Of a stretch of 64,000 nt of DNA, positions 21,901-64,000 are shown piece by piece. The DNA comes from Stenocarpella maydis (taxonomy: Eukaryota; Ascomycota; Sordariomycetes; Diaporthales; Diaporthaceae), in assembly GCA_002270565.1 (NCBI GenBank), contig NQMI01000067.1, positions 178,779 to 242,778 of the forward strand, read 5' to 3'. Position numbers and translations under genes: made by a program. The notes under the pieces are model-generated. The model ran no database searches. It saw only the letters and a list, made by a program, of their open reading frames with translations, and was not told where the DNA came from. Each line of letters starts with the position of its first letter. Positions within the stretch are counted from its first letter, which is position 1.

Positions 21901-24270
21901 GGCTTCTTCACAAACTTCCCAACCATCTGTGAGTAAATGTTGCACAATATCCCCTGTCTATCAGTAGCTGTGTGGACCGTTCCATGCCGCCAAACTAACG
22001 CTGCTCCTACAGGGCTCAAATACTGGTCTGATGATGTCTATTTGGACAACCCAGTCCACTCCTACGCCTACTATGCTGGGATATATGGTTTACTCCAAAT
22101 TTGCGGCATGGTATCACTTCTTCTTCTCGGCATCTCACTCTTCGTTATATCTGTCAAGAGAGCAGGTGCCAATCTCCACCAGCAGGCTTTGCAGACGCTC
22201 ATCCAAGCACCACTGGGCTTCTTCACTAAAACCGATACGGGAATAGTCACAAACCTCTTTTCACAAGACTTGAATCTTGTAGATACAGAGCTGCCAAACG
22301 CATTGCTGAACACCTTATATTCTGTGAGTCTTCCATATCGACATGTCCCTTTGATGTCTTCTGTAACTTTTTGCCGGCGAGCCTTGTCACAGGATAACTT
22401 GAAAGCATAGCAACTTGGCTGGTAGAGGGCACTCTCAGCTACGATATTTATTCTAACATAACTCTTCCAGGTCTTCCAAGCAATCGGGCAGGGCGCAGTC
22501 ATGCTTACAGCATCTGGCTTCTTTGCAATCAGCTACCCATTCCTGGCTGTTTTGCTCTATATTGTACAGAAGTTCTATTTGAGGACCTCAAGGCAGTTGA
22601 GATTGTTGGACCTTGAGGCAAAGAGTCCATGTGAGTAGCTTCTGGAGTCTCTTTATTTTTTCTTTCTTAACCCACTTTGGAATGACATGCTCCTTCCCGT
22701 AACCTATCTCTCGAAGGCCATGGCCACATTGTGGCCCGATCCACACCATGCTTGAATATAGAATATTCCCTAGTTCTTTGAAACTGACTTTCAATTCTGC
22801 AGTGTAGTACGTTAATCACGAGAACACCTGTTACGACTTTCCTAACTGTGGTACCTTGTATTAATCTATCTTCACGCAGCACTCATTTCCTGGACACTCT
22901 AAAGGGAATCACAACTTTACGAGCTTTTGGTGAGTAACAGTTCTAAAGTTAGATGTCCAGTTGTCGAGAGGAAGACCTCAGGACAACACCGCAATGCTTT
23001 CTAGTCCGTTCATAAATACACTGTTTGGCTGACCGGGAACTGAATGCAGGTTTTATTTCCGAAGATACCCAGAAGAACGTACGTTTGATTGATACGAGCC
23101 AGCGCCCGGCATACCTGCTGTTCATGATTCAATCTTGGTTGAATCTTGTCCTTGACCTCGTGGTCATGGTAATGGCAGCAGTGCTGACGACGCTTGCTGT
23201 TCGGCTTCATTCCAACTCTGGTTTCGCCGGTGCTTCCCTGGTGTCACTGATGAGCTTTGGAGAGAACCTCTCTTCGATTGTCATATTCTATACACAACTA
23301 GAGACTTCCATTGGAGCGATAGCTAGGCTCAAGGCGTTTAGCGACGAGGTGAAGCCGGAGGACAGGGATCAAGAAGACATTATCCCCACTGAGCAGTGGC
23401 CCTTGACAGGGGTGGTTGAGCTGGCGGGTGTTTCTGCAACCTACGAGTAAGAACAGCGCCTACTGTTGCGTTTCCATGCCCAGCTCATGATTAGCCGCTG
23501 ACGGTGCGAGCAGTGTGGAGGATCAGACGGATGAGACACCCAACTTGGCCCTCCGAGATGTTCACCTTAAGATCGCCGCGGGCGAGAAGGTTGCCATCTG
23601 CGGTCGAACTGGCAGCGGAAAGTCCAGCTTGATTGCACTGCTGCTTAAGCTCCTCGACCCGACGGCAGAAACGGAAGAGAACATAACGATCGACGGCAAG
23701 CCGCTTATGCGCATCAACCGATCCGCCTTGCGACAACGCATAATCGCCGTTCCCCAGGAACCCGTCTTTCTGCCGGATGGGTCAACCTTCAAAGCCAACC
23801 TGGACCCAACCAACGTCTCCTCGGCCGAGGAATGCCAAGCTGTGGCGGCGGCAGTGGGCCTCTGGGAGTTTATGCAAGACCGGGGTGGACTGCACGCAGG
23901 CATGAGCGCGAGTACCCTCAGCGCTGGGCAGCGGCAGCTCATGTCCCTCGGACGTGCACTCCTGAGACGCCGAATCCGAGCGAGGAACCTGGGCATGGGG
24001 GGTGGTGGCCCCGAGGGCGGGCTGTTGCTGCTGGACGAGGTTAGCTCCAGCGTGGACCACGAGACGGAGCGTCAGATGCAGGAGATCATCGCCAAGGAAT
24101 TCAAGGAGTACACAATCATCGCAGTCAGTCACCGACTGGACATGATCATGGGATTCGACAGAGTTGTTGTGATGGATACTGGAGAGGTTGTGGAGATTGG
24201 TAACCCAATGCAACTCGCCGGAAAGGAGGACTCGAGGTTTGGCGAGTTGGTGAGGGCTGGTGCTAAATAG
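18945..24270 (+). CDS. ABC-C (MRP-type) multidrug transporter, full length
   Basis: A full ABC-C exporter of about 1,475 residues with two membrane domains and two ATPase domains. Exons: 18945-19183, 19245-19368, 19481-20138, 20196-21928, 22013-22323, 22471-22630, 22803-22806, 22880-22929, 23050-23446 and 23514-24270. NBD1 has Walker A GPVGSGKST, signature LSGGQKQR and Walker B LLVFDDV. NBD2 has GRTGSGKSS, LSAGQRQL and LLLLDEV. The 18945 exon begins at an acceptor, so a first exon with the true ATG lies upstream; the first in-frame ATG is 18989. A 4-nt exon (22803-22806) is required to read KSPLYTHFLD. The protein likely exports conjugates or toxic compounds across plasma or vacuolar membranes. 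No disabling lesion is seen. Confidence 0.92.
22631..22802 (+). repeat. Introner-like intron in the ABC transporter gene
   Basis: This 172-nt intron (donor GTGAGTAGCTTCTGG, acceptor TTCTGCAG) shares its whole layout with the Nudix gene intron at 39472-39603. Shared blocks in order are AGCTTCTGG at the donor, a TTGG(A/G)ATGA block, GCCATGGCC, the exact 13-mer TGGCCCGATCCAC (22732-22744) and a branch-site block TGAAA(C)TGACT near the acceptor. It is longer than its partner because of extra AT-rich sequence. It is followed by exon TGTA and a separate ordinary intron (22807-22879). Confidence 0.7.
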
Positions 24271-39353: not shown

Positions 39354-40688
39354 ATGCCAACGGCCCCATCACAGAACCCTGCCCGCGGGCTGTCATCAGC
39401 CAGCTCCCCCAGGCCCAAGACCGACGGAGACGGACCATCCATGGCGGAGGCGCGGCCGAGCTCAAGCGTCAGTAAGCAGCTTCTGGTGTCATTTTTAAAC
39501 CGCCTTGGGATGAGAAATCCCCTCCCAGAGCCCTTGTCTCAGATGCCATGGCCAGACCATGGCCCGATCCACGCTGTCTCTGAAAGCTGACTCAATGCTG
39601 CAGTCCTCCTCTCCCCCACCAACCAGGTCCTCCTCCTCCACCGCGTACAGACCTCCACCTCCTTCCCCTCCGCCCACGTCTTCCCCGGCGGGAACCTCTC
39701 CCCCTTCCACGAGCCCCCTCCCCCGCCCGCGGGCTCGCCAGACCGCCATCGCGACTCCCCGGCCTACCGCCTCGCCGCCGTCCGCGAGACCTTCGAGGAG
39801 TCGGGCATCCTGATCGCCAAGCGCTCCCCCGCCGACGACACCCTCCTCGTCGTCCCGGAGGCGCAGCGCGACGAGGCCCGGCGGCTGGTCCACGGTGACG
39901 AGCTGAGGTTCACCGACTGGGTCGAGCAGCACCTCGGGGCCGTCCTGTGCGATGCTGACCTCGTCCCCTTCACGCGGTGGGTCACGCCGCCCAACATGCC
40001 GAGGCGCTTCACCACCCAGATGTACCTCTACTTCATGCCGCTGGCAGGGTTGCCGCCGCCTCCGGGAGGGGGCCCGGCAGTCGAGGACGTGGGCGTCGTG
40101 CAGACGCCGACCCCCGACGGCGGCGTCGAGCACACGGCGGCAACCTTCGCCGACGCCTCCGAGTGGCTGCGCAGGCAGCGCCGCGGCGACGTCGTCCTGT
40201 TCCCGCCGCAGTGCTACCTGCTCACCCTGGTGGCCGAGGTGTTCGCCTCGGTGTCGCCCGAGAGCGTCGGGAACGACCTGGAGGCGAGGTACGCGGCCCA
40301 GCGGAGGGCGCTGGTGGAGTTCGTGCGCAGGACGCCCACGACCGCCAGTGATGGTGCTGCTGCTGCTGCTGCGGCGGCGGCGGCGGCGGCGGGAGGGCAA
40401 GGGGCAGGAGGCAGGGCGCTGCACCCGACGGCTCTGATTCCATGGTCGGAGAAGGTCATGAGCCCGCACACCTTGTTCATACGCCACAGCGACGACAGGA
40501 TTGTGCTTGGGGTGGACAAGCCTGGCCCGGAGCTGAAAGGGAGCGGGGCGGGCGGTGACTTTGATAGGGTTGTGCTGGTCAAGTTCGGGAAAGGTGGGCC
40601 CCGTGATGTCGAAGTCAGGGGAAGACAAGAGGTATTGAGGGAAGACAAAGCTTCGAAAGAAAACGGAAAAGAGGCAGGGAAATTATAA
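39354..40688 (+). CDS. Nudix hydrolase, NUDT19-like
   Basis: Two exons (39354-39471, 39604-40688) give about 400 residues. The join restores SSVILLSPTNQVLLLHRV in frame. The Nudix core reads HVFPGGNLS, an insert of about 25 residues, then AAVRETFEESGIL. This split Nudix box is characteristic of the NUDT19/RP2 group, hydrolases of CoA and related diphosphates, often peroxisomal or mitochondrial. Later motifs are WVTPPNMPRRFTTQMYLYF and LFPPQCYLLTLV. An alanine run of 12 (GCT/GCG repeats) interrupts the C-terminal half. The start may be at ATG 39354 or the later in-phase ATG 39441. The single intron is the introner-like copy described separately. Confidence 0.87.
39472..39603 (+). repeat. Introner-like intron in the Nudix gene
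   Basis: This 132-nt intron (donor GTAAGCAGCTTCTGG, acceptor AATGCTGCAG) matches the ABC gene intron at 22631-22802 block by block. It includes the exact 13-mer TGGCCCGATCCAC (39560-39572) and GCCATGGCC just before it. It is in phase 1 and its length is a multiple of three. Confidence 0.7.
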
Positions 40689-52390: not shown

Positions 52391-52538
52391 GCCCGGCTAG
52401 CTCAATCGGTAGAGCGTGAGACTCTTGTACGTTCCTGGCTTCAACACACCACTTGTAACCTACAATCGCTAACAACAGCAGACACTGTCACGACTCTGAT
52501 GAATCTCAAGGTTGTGGGTTCGACCCCCACGTCGGGCT
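52391..52538 (+). tRNA. tRNA-Lys(CUU): tRNA-Lys (anticodon CUU) with 65-nt intron
   Basis: The acceptor 5' strand GCCCGGC pairs with GTCGGGC (52531-52537), with one G-T pair. The D-arm and box A are TAGCTCAATCGGT. The anticodon stem is TGAGA with TCTCA, the anticodon CTT is at 52434-52436, and the T-arm is GTGGGTTCGACCCCCAC (box B). An intron at 52438-52502 starts one base after the anticodon, the normal eukaryotic site. A T run follows within 30 nt. Confidence 0.95.
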
Positions 52539-54950: not shown

Positions 54951-56856
54951 TTCGTTAGAGGCTAGGCCGGCTCGAAGTTTTCGCGGTTGAGTTCGGTAGT
55001 TTGCTGTTCTTGTTAACGAGATGTGAATATGTGGTTTCGCAGAGGACAAGATTGGCCTCCACTTCTGACCGTTGTTCGTGGGCCAATCCCGGAGCCACTC
55101 CCCTTAATACCTTAGGTAGGTATGATTCTGGTCCGTACTTCGGTGCAGATGGCGTGTACCTGGATATCGACTAGCACACAACACAGCCAAGCATTCATAG
55201 ATGGTAGGAATCAGTTGAATACGAGCTTAAGTATGATGCATCTAAAAAGCCCGTAGGCGCACCCAGTACAAGAAATTAAGCGTGCAGCACACTATAAATT
55301 CCTATATCTCCCCTACCCTCTAGCCCCTCCATACCCCTCTACACCCCTCCACTACTCTATAAATCCAGAGGAAGGCCCTCCATACGCCTTTTACGCGCCT
55401 AAAGGAAGGCCCTCTATCCCTTTATACCCCTTTATATACCTCTAAAAGGCGCCCCTTTTAAAAGTCCTTCCTCTAGGCGTATAAAGGGCTTTCCTTTAAG
55501 TATATAAAGGGCCTTCCTTTAGGCGCATAAAGGGCTTATAGAGGAGGGCCTAGGCCTAAAGGGTTAGGATAGGCCTTTTACTTATATAAACTTTCCACAT
55601 ACCTAGCTAACCTTATAGGGCTTTAGTATAGGGTTAAGGAGCTATTAGTAGGGTTAAGGAGCTATAGGTATAAAAGAACTAGGTATATTATATGCTTAAT
55701 TTCTTCTACCTACTAGGTGCGCCCACGGAAAGAGCTGGGTGCGTGAACGCTGACCGCAACTTGAGTTGTACGTGATACTACCAAAACTCAAGACTCTTAA
55801 CTCCACATGTCATATAGATTTTATATTGGAATCATAAGTCATGGGCTCGGGTGCTGCCATTAATGATATTGGCATTTCCTTCTAAGAATAATAATCTTAG
55901 TAATTTCGCTATACTTTTATTTGTGGGAGCTAAAGTTATGCAAGCAACCCAAATGCTCCGGGTCAAGACCGTACGTTCTGGGATTTTAATGCCAGGCCTC
56001 TCGGAAGGGGGGAGGGGTTTAAAAAGGCCACACAAGGTAATCTTTATTTCGTATATTTCATTAACATGCAGAGACTATTCAAATACAGAGATGTCATTGG
56101 AGTACGAGGTAATGTATGAAGGACGGTAAAGTCTAGACTATAGCAGCAGGGACAATGTGCCAGTACAGGTACTGCCTTTAACTATATCGCCATATCTCAA
56201 TAACCTTAGTGAAAGGAGTTATTTCAGCCCTATATATACATATGTCAGCTCACCCCAGTCCACGTGATGTTCATGTGTGGCTCATATCGCGGGCTCAGGC
56301 TCTATAGACAGGGCTTAGCTAGAGGCTTAGATCATGCAATTCTTATCCATCCGGGTTTAGCTCTTTTGACCAGCTCTTTGTTCTGAGGCTTCGGTAGCCT
56401 CCAGACGCCGTTTCGGTTGACATGTGTTTGATGAATCGAAAGTGCCCAGGTGACTATCTTGTAGCGATGAAATTCGAAGGGCTAATAGTGGAGGTGGTTT
56501 CCAAATGGCGTCTTTTTGACAAACTGACACGGCAGTGCGACACCTCGCCAGGAGGCGTAATACTTTCGGCCGTTGTAATCGAATTACTTTGCGGCATGGA
56601 TCTACTAGTGGTGATAAGACGACATCTACAGATAGTTAAGGACTTGGATTGAAGGTCGGACGTGGAGGAACATGCTGTGGGTACGGGACCGCTTCTGGCC
56701 CTGAAACTGGACTACCTGACCATAAATTGCCCGTGGACGCGCGGAAAATAGTGAAGCTGGTTTGTAGATTCCGGTTGATCGTTCATGTGATGGAGTCCGC
56801 GTGTTTTCTCACATAGAACTCAACTAGCACATGAGGCTCGGTCTCCACAACTTTTC
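54951..56856. other. Intergenic with MITE-like element
   Basis: Holds the hairpin element 55256-55723. To its right is AT-rich sequence (55800-56130), where a short leftward frame contains APTNKSIAKLLRLLF, faintly helicase-like but too short to call. No gene is supported. Confidence 0.5.
55256..55723. mobile_element. MITE-like element with terminal and internal inverted repeats
   Basis: The left end GGCGCACCCAGTA and the inverted right end GGCGCACCTAGTA (55711-55723 reversed) differ at one position. Both continue inward with AAGAAATTAAGC after a 4-nt length difference. Inside, GCGCCTAAAGGAAGGCCCT (55395-55413) is the exact inverse of 55508-55526, so the centre can fold into a long hairpin. 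The element is 468 bp, AT-rich with CCCTCC/TATAAA words, and has no coding capacity. No clear target-site duplication was seen. Confidence 0.7.
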
Positions 56857-61278: not shown

Positions 61279-62037
61279 TGAGACGGTTAATGAGGAAAAT
61301 AAGAAAAGGAAGAGGTCTATGGATTGTCTTGGGCGGGATTCGCCGGATCTATACGATGCTCGTTGGTTTAGCTTTCATGTAACGGGTTGAGTTCCGAGGA
61401 GTTGGTTTAATTATTTCTGTCTACCTATATAGAAGAAGGGTAACTAGAGGTTGATATCCCCCGCTTAGTTAGGGCCAAATACGCCCTCACGAAAGGGGAA
61501 GTTGCCTGCCAGGCCTACCCTTCAGAAGACAGAAGTCTCAGCTATTCACCTGGGTGCCTTCAACTGTGCCTGTGGGGTTGGCCTGCGTCTCCTGAGTCAA
61601 TGTAAATATCATAACCAAGTGGAGTCAGGTGAGAATGGTAGTAGGGAGGAGGGCTTGCAAAAGAGATTACCCAGAGGCAACAATTTATGATCCCAAGCAC
61701 TAAAATTGTGATAATGCCTACCTCGTCTGTATGTTTGAGGTTTGTAGTGCCTAGTTGCTTGCACTACAAGGGCCCCTGTGGAACCCGACGCTCGGTTCGA
61801 GCGGATGCGGCGGGCGAGCAAGACCCCTGGCCCTTGTTACTCCAGTGCCACTAGTGTAGCCTCTCTGCCGAGACACCTTTTCCGGCTGTCTGGGCCACTT
61901 TACCTTTGCTCTAAGCCCCTATGATTCCCATCCCACCTCGCCTCGCCTCGCTCTTCGCCGTCTTCCCGAGATCATGGTGGACGTCAAGACCCAACCCTCC
62001 TGTACAGCATCTCCATTGTTTCCGTCCGCACTGCAGG
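61279..62037. other. Intergenic, no gene seen
   Basis: About 760 nt between the DUF7580 gene and the ZIP transporter, in tandem. It should hold the transporter promoter. No domain-bearing frame was found. Confidence 0.55.
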
Positions 62038-63581
62038 ATGGATAATCCGACCCAGCTAGCGACCGGTAAGTGTGCCTGCTTGCCTGCTGCTGGCCCCGCC
62101 TTCAATGCCCCATCAGCCCTCCCATCCCAACCGCACGCCCCTCTCCTGCTCGCCGCTGCTGCTGATGCTAACCCCGACATTGTGTGCGCGCATAGATACT
62201 TCCTGGTCCTCCCTTCCGACAGAATGGCTCCTGGCTGAGCTCGCAAAACGCGGCGATGCGGCCGACACGAAGCCTGCCTGTGGCTCCGGCAAGAAGGGCT
62301 CCTACGACACATTCATGCATGTCGCTGCTTTGATGCTCATCCTCGCCCTGAGCACAATGTGTACGCATCCAACACCGCCCCTGTTGCCCCTGGACCGAGA
62401 TGGCGCTCGTCGCTGACCCCCATGACCTCGCAGCTTGCGGCTTCCCCCTAATATCCAGCCACTCCCGGAGCCGGCGCTCCAACAGCATTGTCTTCTACTC
62501 CCAGCACTTCGGCACCGGCGTCCTGATCGCTACCGCATTCGTCCACCTCCTCCCGACTGCCTTCCAATCCCTCACCGACCCGTGTCTCCCGTACTTCTTC
62601 AGCAAGGGCTACAAGCCCCTGCCGGGATTCATAGCCATGTTCTCGGCCATGGTGGTAGTCGCACTCGAGTCCTATTTAACAACACGTGGCGCCGGGCACT
62701 CCCATTCGCACATGTGGGAAGATGAGGACAGCGATGACGAACATGGGGTCCTGGATCGGCAGACCGGAGGCCTCTTGGCCGCCAGGCGCGGGCTGAACCG
62801 GCCTACCAATATTGCACTGGAGGATCTGGATGCCTCCGAGGGGCTCATGGCGGACGCGTCCCCGCTTCCGGAATCGACGCCGACCTTACAGGTGAATGGG
62901 AAGAGCAGCGGTGGGGCAGACGCGCCGAGATTGGGGAGATTGTATGACGATGGCGATGACGACGCGGATCGCGAGTCGATGGACCTGGAGCTGAACATGG
63001 ACGAGCTATCCACCGTGCGCCTCGATGGCGCCAAGCCCATTTCCGACCCCAAGAGCCCGACGGTGGCTCACATGCCAAGTCAAGACGAGCAGAGGAGGCT
63101 GATGCTACAATGTCTCCTTCTCGAGGCCGGCATCCTCTTCCACAGCGTCTTCATCGGGATGGCCATATCTGTCGCTACCGGGCCACCGTTCGTGGTGTTC
63201 CTCGTAGCCATAGCCTTCCATCAGACCTTTGAGGGCCTCGCGCTCGGCTCTCGAATCGCCGGCCTCCACCTACCCAAATCATCACCTCGACCTTGGCTCA
63301 TGGTCCTCGCCTACGGCACGACGACCCCTATAGGCCAGGCGATTGGGCTCATCGTACATAACTTTTACGACCCCATGAGCCAGACCGGGCTGCTCATGGT
63401 CGGCTTCATGAACGCCATTTCGAGTGGTCTGCTACTTTTCGCAGGCCTGGTCCAGCTCCTGTCGGAGGACTTTTTGAGCGAGAAGAGCTACAAGAACCTG
63501 CACGGCCGCAGGAGAATCAATGCTTTCGTCGCCGTGATAGGTGGCTCATTGTTGATGGCGCTTGTTGGTGCTTTCGCATGA
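62038..63581 (+). CDS. ZIP-family zinc/iron transporter
   Basis: A plasma-membrane divalent metal importer of the ZIP family. Three exons (62038-62065, 62196-62360, 62434-63581) give 446 residues. The N-terminal exons carry MDNPTQLATDTSWSSLPTEW and a first helix. Motifs include SQHFGTGVLIATAFVHLLPT, a cytosolic loop with GHSHSHMWEDED (metal-binding His) and acidic repeats, HSVFIGMAI, and the signature FHQTFEGLALGSRI, in which His and Glu bind zinc. The final helices end with GGSLLMALVGAFA. The layout matches fungal Zrt1/Zrt2-type transporters. Which metal it prefers, and regulation by zinc, cannot be read from the window. Confidence 0.93.
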
Positions 63582-64000
63582 GCTTAAATATGGCCTGGAG
63601 TTGTGGGTTTCTGGATGTCTTCAATATCTAAAGCATGCGCGGAGTTGGTGGTACATCTCATTACAATATTTTCCACACCTAGGTATATATCTCTGCCTTG
63701 TCCAATCATATTATCTGTGACGATGTCTCTAATCTCGGGGAATGCCATCTCCCGGATGATCAGCTAGAGTACCTGGGGACGCGATCCAACTGGAGCGCGT
63801 CGCTATAATTTTTTTTTTTTTTTGCCGTCACTTTACGTCACAAGTGACATTCCCACGTGCATGTTTCCCGCTGTGTCGGAAAAACGAGAGTTACCCCCCC
63901 CCTGGCTAAATTAGCATTTGCCGCACGTGCCACCTAAATTTTGGTGCAAAGTCAGGCAACTCACAATTCTCGCCTAGATAACGATTTCCACCCTATTTAC
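63582..64000. other. 3' flank of the ZIP gene, window end
   Basis: Contains CACACCTAGGTATATA near 63676, a T run of about 15 near 63809 and a C run near 63894. No gene start is seen before the edge. Confidence 0.55.

Follow-up and report, generated by a model that had tools for sequence, protein, structure and literature searches.

Two introns in unrelated genes of the window (the whole stretch of 64,000 nucleotides analysed here) are members of a single copied-intron family, with at least 101 full-length GT-AG copies in the same genome. The first-pass annotation of the window had proposed such a family, and the present analysis bears it out. We identify these elements as introners with high confidence, and it is probable that a spliceosomal intron some 160 nt long was multiplied via RNA into at least 101 places.

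Two related introns in the window

The two introns lie in an ABC-C transporter-like and a Nudix-like gene, and begin and end exactly where they had been placed by the first-pass annotation (Table 1). Its statement that they align nearly end to end also held, with a local alignment score of 52 as compared to a maximum of 28 in 500 dinucleotide shuffles (mean 16.2, sd 2.5); when the window was tested in 30-base steps, the best other piece scored 29. The shared blocks that it had named, including the 13-mer TGGCCCGATCCAC, were found in the described order in both introns. The T-rich insertion of the ABC-C copy is located near its 5' end, and the Nudix copy, from which a stretch close to the 3' end is missing, is 28 nt below the 160-nt consensus.

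Removal of the two introns had been said to restore conserved protein motifs. This is the case for the Nudix gene, where the spliced join reads ..SSSVILLSPTNQVLLLHRV..FPGGNLSPFHE..RETFEESGIL. For the ABC-C gene it is true only with a predicted 4-nt exon and a second intron, unmentioned in the annotation, which together give a join reading ..LEAKSPLYTHFLDTLKGITTLRAFG; one-step removal of 22631-22879 breaks the reading frame. The ABC-C exon has named matches of 67-70% in Talaromyces, Aspergillus, Thermothielavioides and Clarireedia. In genome-wide BLAST searches with either intron, the other one was absent among the matches listed, and the two are linked via the wider family and not via direct genome BLAST.

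Table 1. Positions of the two introner copies and adjoining features in the window
Feature	Position	Strand	Basis
Introner copy in ABC-C transporter-like gene, 172 nt, GTGAGT..CTGCAG, T-rich insertion	22631..22802	+	End-to-end alignment, family profile
Predicted 4-nt exon TGTA between introner and next intron (ABC-C gene)	22803..22806	+	Sole join keeping SPLYTHFLDTLKGITTLRAFG in frame
Ordinary intron directly 3' of the 4-nt exon, 73 nt, GTACGT..ACGCAG	22807..22879	+	No match to family profile
Introner copy in Nudix-like gene, 132 nt, GTAAGC..CTGCAG, shortened near 3' end, site TCA|TCC	39472..39603	+	
Near-terminal stem of Nudix copy, 5' arm GCAGC	39476..39480	+	
Near-terminal stem of Nudix copy, 3' arm GCTGC	39597..39601	+	

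A family of full-length copies

Searches covered the window's own assembly (53.5 Mb in 312 contigs, denoted G000). BLAST with the ABC-C intron as a query retrieved 37 matches, and the Nudix intron at least 40 (40 scored of 62 candidates). The 40 scored Nudix matches all start at the first intron base, and the 39 non-query ones among them are 78-90% identical. Patterns derived from the consensus, allowing up to 3 mismatches, matched 50 places for the 5' end, 37 for the middle and 81 for the 3' end, and reversed control patterns matched none in each case; a shorter 5' pattern with 2 mismatches matched 127 places vs 12 for its control. A 24-nt 3' pattern had no matches in viral contigs or in prokaryote genomes, which says little about fungi.

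Running a profile built from 47 aligned copies over 105 segments (300 kb; cut-off E<=1) yielded 112 matches. After six boundary corrections, 102 of these start with GT and end with AG, and 101 are full-length, in keeping with the dozens of matches running exactly from GT to AG that the first-pass annotation had expected of an introner family. The number 101 is a lower bound, because among 89 new clusters retrieved by the patterns 60 were read, one was already included, and 28, matched by the short 5' pattern only, were left out of the profile run. Since the profile covered retrieved segments only, and many of these were picked by end patterns, the conservation of the intron ends is biased upward.

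The family consensus, of about 160 nt, reads GTAAGCAGCTTC..CTGAC..CAATGCTGCAG. Most full-length copies (95/101) start with GTAAGC, and 70/101 contain a CTGAC or CTAAC branch motif whose A is 15 nt from the intron end. The copies therefore come with a donor, a branch site and an acceptor of their own, and their ends are fixed across the family, as described for fungal introner-like elements. A set of 87 candidate ordinary introns, picked by motif, has a median length of 69 nt. One copy of 57 nt (G000:C290:686752-686808), reduced to the first 23 and the last 37 positions of the profile, is apparently an introner that shrank to a minimal intron.

Host genes and intron behaviour

Copies are found nearly exclusively in coding sequence, in the sense direction. 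Their removal leaves a frame of at least 100 aa in 93/101 cases (median 222 aa), a test that is weak alone because antisense frames (76/101, median 145 aa) and random deletions in the same stretches (64%, median 129 aa) often reach this length too. Only 6/101 unspliced elements can be read through in the host frame without a stop. We searched for Pfam domains in 20 spliced products, the first ones in profile order whose frame comprised 180 aa or more, with no fewer than 50 aa to either side of the junction. A domain was found in 16 of them and spans the junction in 15, with one domain lying away from the junction; the remaining four products had no domain, and one of these was judged to be in the wrong frame. 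The junction-spanning domains include luciferase-like monooxygenase, peroxidase, GMC oxidoreductase, GH43 (two hosts), nucleotide-sugar transporter, MFS, aldo/keto reductase and CoA ligase, so that the 101 sequence-similar introns reside in unrelated genes, a hallmark of introner-like elements.

For one of the GH43 hosts, an alignment with nine homologues is gap-free at the junction, and a single homologue has an additional residue a few positions before it. All ten sequences share an Asp-Met pair whose Met codon is interrupted by the junction, and the CATG at this place therefore looks older than the insertion. The protein of the GH43 host of G000:C99:65803-65962 is 89% identical to a protein of Colletotrichum somersetense, the closest among the best 120 of 7693 matches, and no Diaporthe is named among these 120; gene transfer or missing data are possible reasons.

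The middle pattern makes no use of the intron ends, and 35 of its 37 matches are full-length GT-AG introns, 33 of which leave a spliced frame of at least 100 aa. The other two matches represent a single duplicated, truncated copy on contig C110. Within this set of pattern matches the copies thus appear restricted to genes, and matches lying mostly outside introns, named by the first-pass annotation as an outcome that would speak against a family of introners, were not observed. From these sequence features we infer that the copies are spliced and were recently gained.

A directional insertion site

We compared the exon bases flanking the copies with counts expected from phase-matched positions in the same host flanks, which form part of no query. 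The copies sit at CA|T in 31/101 cases (2.28 expected), including CA|TG in 20 (0.76 expected) and CA|TC in 11 (0.98 expected), and at C|AT in 9 (1.52 expected). The usual protosplice site AG|G shows no preference (2/101 vs 1.62 expected), and C at position +1 was seen in 2/101 copies vs 26.7 expected. Strongly preferred positions are C-2, A-1, T+1 and G+2, with T at +1 in 57/101 copies vs 14/87 of the motif-picked ordinary introns. CA|TC was far more frequent than its mirror GA|TG (11 vs 1, with 0.98 and 0.54 expected), and the site is therefore read in one direction.

CA|T is commoner in copies less like the profile (19/42) than in close ones (12/59), and C|AT shows the opposite trend (0/42 vs 9/59). 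Nearest copies share their site class at a frequency of 0.65 vs 0.57 by chance, with 8% of permutations being as high.

No target-site duplication was found when flanks were compared with permuted pairs at 2, 3, 4, 5 and 8 bases, all of which were within about one sd of the permuted value or below it. Flank matching at 6 bases was two sd above (0.305 vs 0.271), as codon periodicity would give, and the twelve largest offset flank matches (0.06-0.07 above control) were all displaced by nine bases, a displacement that we also read as codon periodicity. With no flank excess and a gap-free GH43 host, the insertions have the seamless character, without target-site duplication, that marks introners. 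Two other arrangements were considered and rejected. Complementary exon flanks (CA with TG) found no support, with C|G occurring once and G|C never, vs 14 times for C|A; and a [D1,2] stwintron, whose internal intron follows G1 of the outer donor, would have G before the GT, seen in only 22/101 copies.

Predicted structure of the intron RNA

A stable predicted RNA structure was reportedly among the traits in the first description of fungal introner-like elements. The consensus of the present family folds into one rod, a single long imperfect hairpin of -46 kcal/mol (z -3.1; 3/1000 shuffles as low). The mean fold z of the first 40 copies was -2.1, with -1.8 for their antisense, and the two window copies gave values of 0.18 (ABC-C, first 150 nt) and -1.3 (Nudix).

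With sets of 47, 101, 59 and 42 copies RNAalifold predicted no pairs, and with three subsets of 15 it predicted weak ones. Evaluated on the consensus fold, paired cells amounted to 0.8305 vs 0.8246 in shuffles (sd 0.0020), and double changes to 73 vs 55.9 (sd 6.3); this excess disappeared without the single pair 35-127 (0.8309 vs 0.8299 and 53 vs 47, respectively). Covariation is thus unconvincing, and the fold therefore seems not to be maintained after insertion. We accordingly rejected a structure conserved across copies, and keep the fold as a property of the consensus alone.

A five-pair stem, GCAGC/GCTGC, joins intron nt 5-9 with nt -7 to -3. It is complete in 70/101 copies and has four or five pairs in 95/101; among the 87 ordinary-intron candidates none has the complete stem, and 14 have four or more pairs. 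Among 36 copies that BLAST retrieved with the ABC-C intron as the query, 28 have all five pairs. Because the copies descend from one consensus, these counts are not independent and mix inheritance with constraint. The near-terminal stems of Xylariales stwintrons, in the accessible text of the report describing them, likewise run from donor nt 5 to near the acceptor (PMC12403724).

History of the copies

Pairwise identity between the copies averages 75% and reaches 96% at most. The FastTree tree is star-like, with terminal branches summing to 11.85 vs 1.50 for internal ones, and support exceeds 0.9 at only 7/98 nodes. A small number of similar sources have produced many copies, each of which then drifted alone. 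The first-pass annotation had cautiously written that the genome "has, or had" an active family, a wording that remains apt: the copies support an active past and leave activity today unproven, because the best pair of copies is only 96% identical. On the same strand, five pairs of matches are no more than 1 kb apart, a number that is no fair test of clustering because some of the pairs were noticed through the flanks that were read. Contig C110, of 64 kb, contains an inverted duplication (G000:C110:33297-35385 and 61570-63658; 2066/2089 positions equal), in both arms of which the element is missing its first eight positions, including the donor end.

A second family in the same genome

Among the repeats left in the segments read we found a second intron-like element of about 104 nt, GTAAGTACCATTCTT..TGATTAACGTGTACCAG (for example G000:C246:505939-506050). 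It has 28 matches in its own genome, of which 25 start at the first base; 22 were read, 21 of them distinct. One of these (L148) begins with GG instead of GT and another (L146) lacks an AG where one would be expected. The ends of this element can also pair from nt 5, with four of four pairs in 13/21 copies vs 1/87 ordinary candidates (better of two offsets). Its sites show no CA|T bias (1/21), and the consensus folds weakly (z -1.7; 26/500 shuffles as low). Four places of the second family, on contigs C246, C16, C226 and C264, are within 400 nt of a place of the first family, two of which are known as pattern matches only. This second family is introner-like and unrelated to the first, sharing the end stem and lacking the site preference.

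Other features of the window and genome

A 136-base repeat with 76% identity is common to G000:C58:69292-72405 and G000:C66:40033-43144, outside the introners. Within the window, pieces of 55270-55743 resemble a repeat on contig C301 near 698,000, and the region contains an inverted repeat with arms at 55377-55417 and 55504-55544; it is possibly a mobile element. A tRNA match at 52391-52538 spans 148 bases for a 71-position model, which makes a tRNA gene containing a long intron probable. For the SLX4 protein of the window, the nearest named proteins are from Diaporthe only (65-74%), followed by Cytospora (49-52%) and other Diaporthales, among the best 120 of 695 matches; on this ground we take the host to be Diaporthe-like, the matches of the ABC-C exon being ambiguous.

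How the copies may have spread

We propose that one or a few near-identical source introns multiplied into at least 101 places, with copies moving through the excised intron RNA by reverse splicing or some other step that depends on RNA. Pairing of the intron ends in the short stem may have helped by keeping these ends together, and inserted copies would then diverge and shrink towards ordinary introns. Decay of this kind into ordinary introns is described for Dothideomycetes copies in the accessible text of PMC4457414. In the accessible part of PMC9860276, ascomycete introners likewise are without target-site duplications and terminal inverted repeats and favour genes, and reverse splicing is proposed for them. 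The sharp, one-directional site fits a target-recognising RNA, or an enzyme that leaves no duplication. We judge the RNA route to be about four times as likely as the DNA route.

In the DNA route, a non-autonomous DNA transposon that makes no target duplication and brings its own splice sites would insert at CATG-like sites. The strongly over-represented CA|TG is palindromic, and its CATG core could suggest a DNA-cutting enzyme; the long imperfect hairpin of the consensus would also suit such an element. However, the target-site duplication of a MITE is absent, and although the consensus folds back, its only inverted repeat at the termini is the five-base one, which lies inside the intron ends. 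The 11 to 1 excess of CA|TC over its mirror makes the site directional, and a DNA element should have left intergenic copies too, whereas 35/37 middle-pattern matches are intact introns. We therefore consider a DNA transposon unlikely.

Other readings fare worse. The several conserved blocks, strongest at the ends, might be those of a non-coding RNA such as a snoRNA or riboswitch, copied within introns for its function; but neither intron matches Rfam, the sole match in the window being the tRNA, covariation between the copies is almost nil, and conservation peaks at the splice ends, all of which render this reading very improbable. Duplicated host genes sharing an old intron are exemplified by the near-identical inverted pair on contig C110, but the hosts belong to many families, and the flanks of the eight closest copy pairs match at chance-like scores of 6-10 only. 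Host-gene duplication is refuted for these tested pairs, and as a general explanation is hardly credible. Chance similarity of the two window introns is refuted by their alignment score, almost double the shuffle maximum, and by some hundred further copies; its probability is negligible.

Within the RNA route that we favour, a more specific scheme can be offered, tentatively and with considerable reserve. Intron RNA, through the spliceosome or some other RNA-dependent step, might insert into a family-specific target, which the element and not the splicing machinery would set, as in a retrohoming intron; the near-terminal stem from nt 5 would then be a shared copying requirement. The first family prefers CA|T(G/C) and the second does not, so that in this scheme the element would set the target.

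The origin of introns has long been an open question, and how fungal introners spread is not settled either. About 100 copies with a clear one-directional motif, next to a second family without it, help to separate RNA-based from DNA-based models, and make this genome useful for studying how new introns arise.

Comparison with known introners

The first-pass annotation had assigned introner-like elements mainly to Dothideomycetes and algae. Those of Dothideomycetes are described in PMC4457414, and fungal introners have also been published for Xylariales (PMC8469720, PMC12403724). Among the introner literature found for Sordariomycetes, reports concerned Hypoxylaceae, with Pleosporales in addition, and nothing was found on Diaporthales; for Diaporthe together with introners the literature searched had no report, nor had it one for intron gain as judged by title and abstract, and an earlier mention may exist in subscription papers or supplementary files. 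As far as these searches reach, the present family, whose host is outside both Xylariales and Dothideomycetes, extends published fungal introners to Diaporthales.

As in the introner-like elements of Dothideomycetes (PMC4457414), similar spliceosomal introns occur here in unrelated ascomycete genes. The present host, in contrast, is Diaporthe-like and belongs to the Sordariomycetes; some copies in Dothideomycetes are 98-99% identical, as compared to a maximum of 96% here; and the main text of that study, as far as searched, mentions no site preference, whereas the present family prefers CA|T(G/C).

Across eukaryotes, the accessible part of a broad survey (PMC9860276) reports introners to be enriched in genes in 161/175 genomes. 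Its ascomycete families resemble ours in having neither target-site duplications nor terminal inverted repeats, but it mentions GC-rich insertion motifs, and that part contains no CA|TG motif.

The sister stwintrons and cropped sister introns of Hypoxylaceae and Xylariaceae (PMC8469720, PMC12403724) also proliferate in Sordariomycetes and are seamless, without flanking duplications. According to the accessible text of these two reports, they further share with the present family an internal symmetry and a near-terminal stem starting at donor nt 5. They differ in being nested, whereas the copies described here are single introns, and the exons beside the Hypoxylon elements show no pattern in the accessible text of PMC8469720, unlike those of the present family with their preference for CA|T(G/C).
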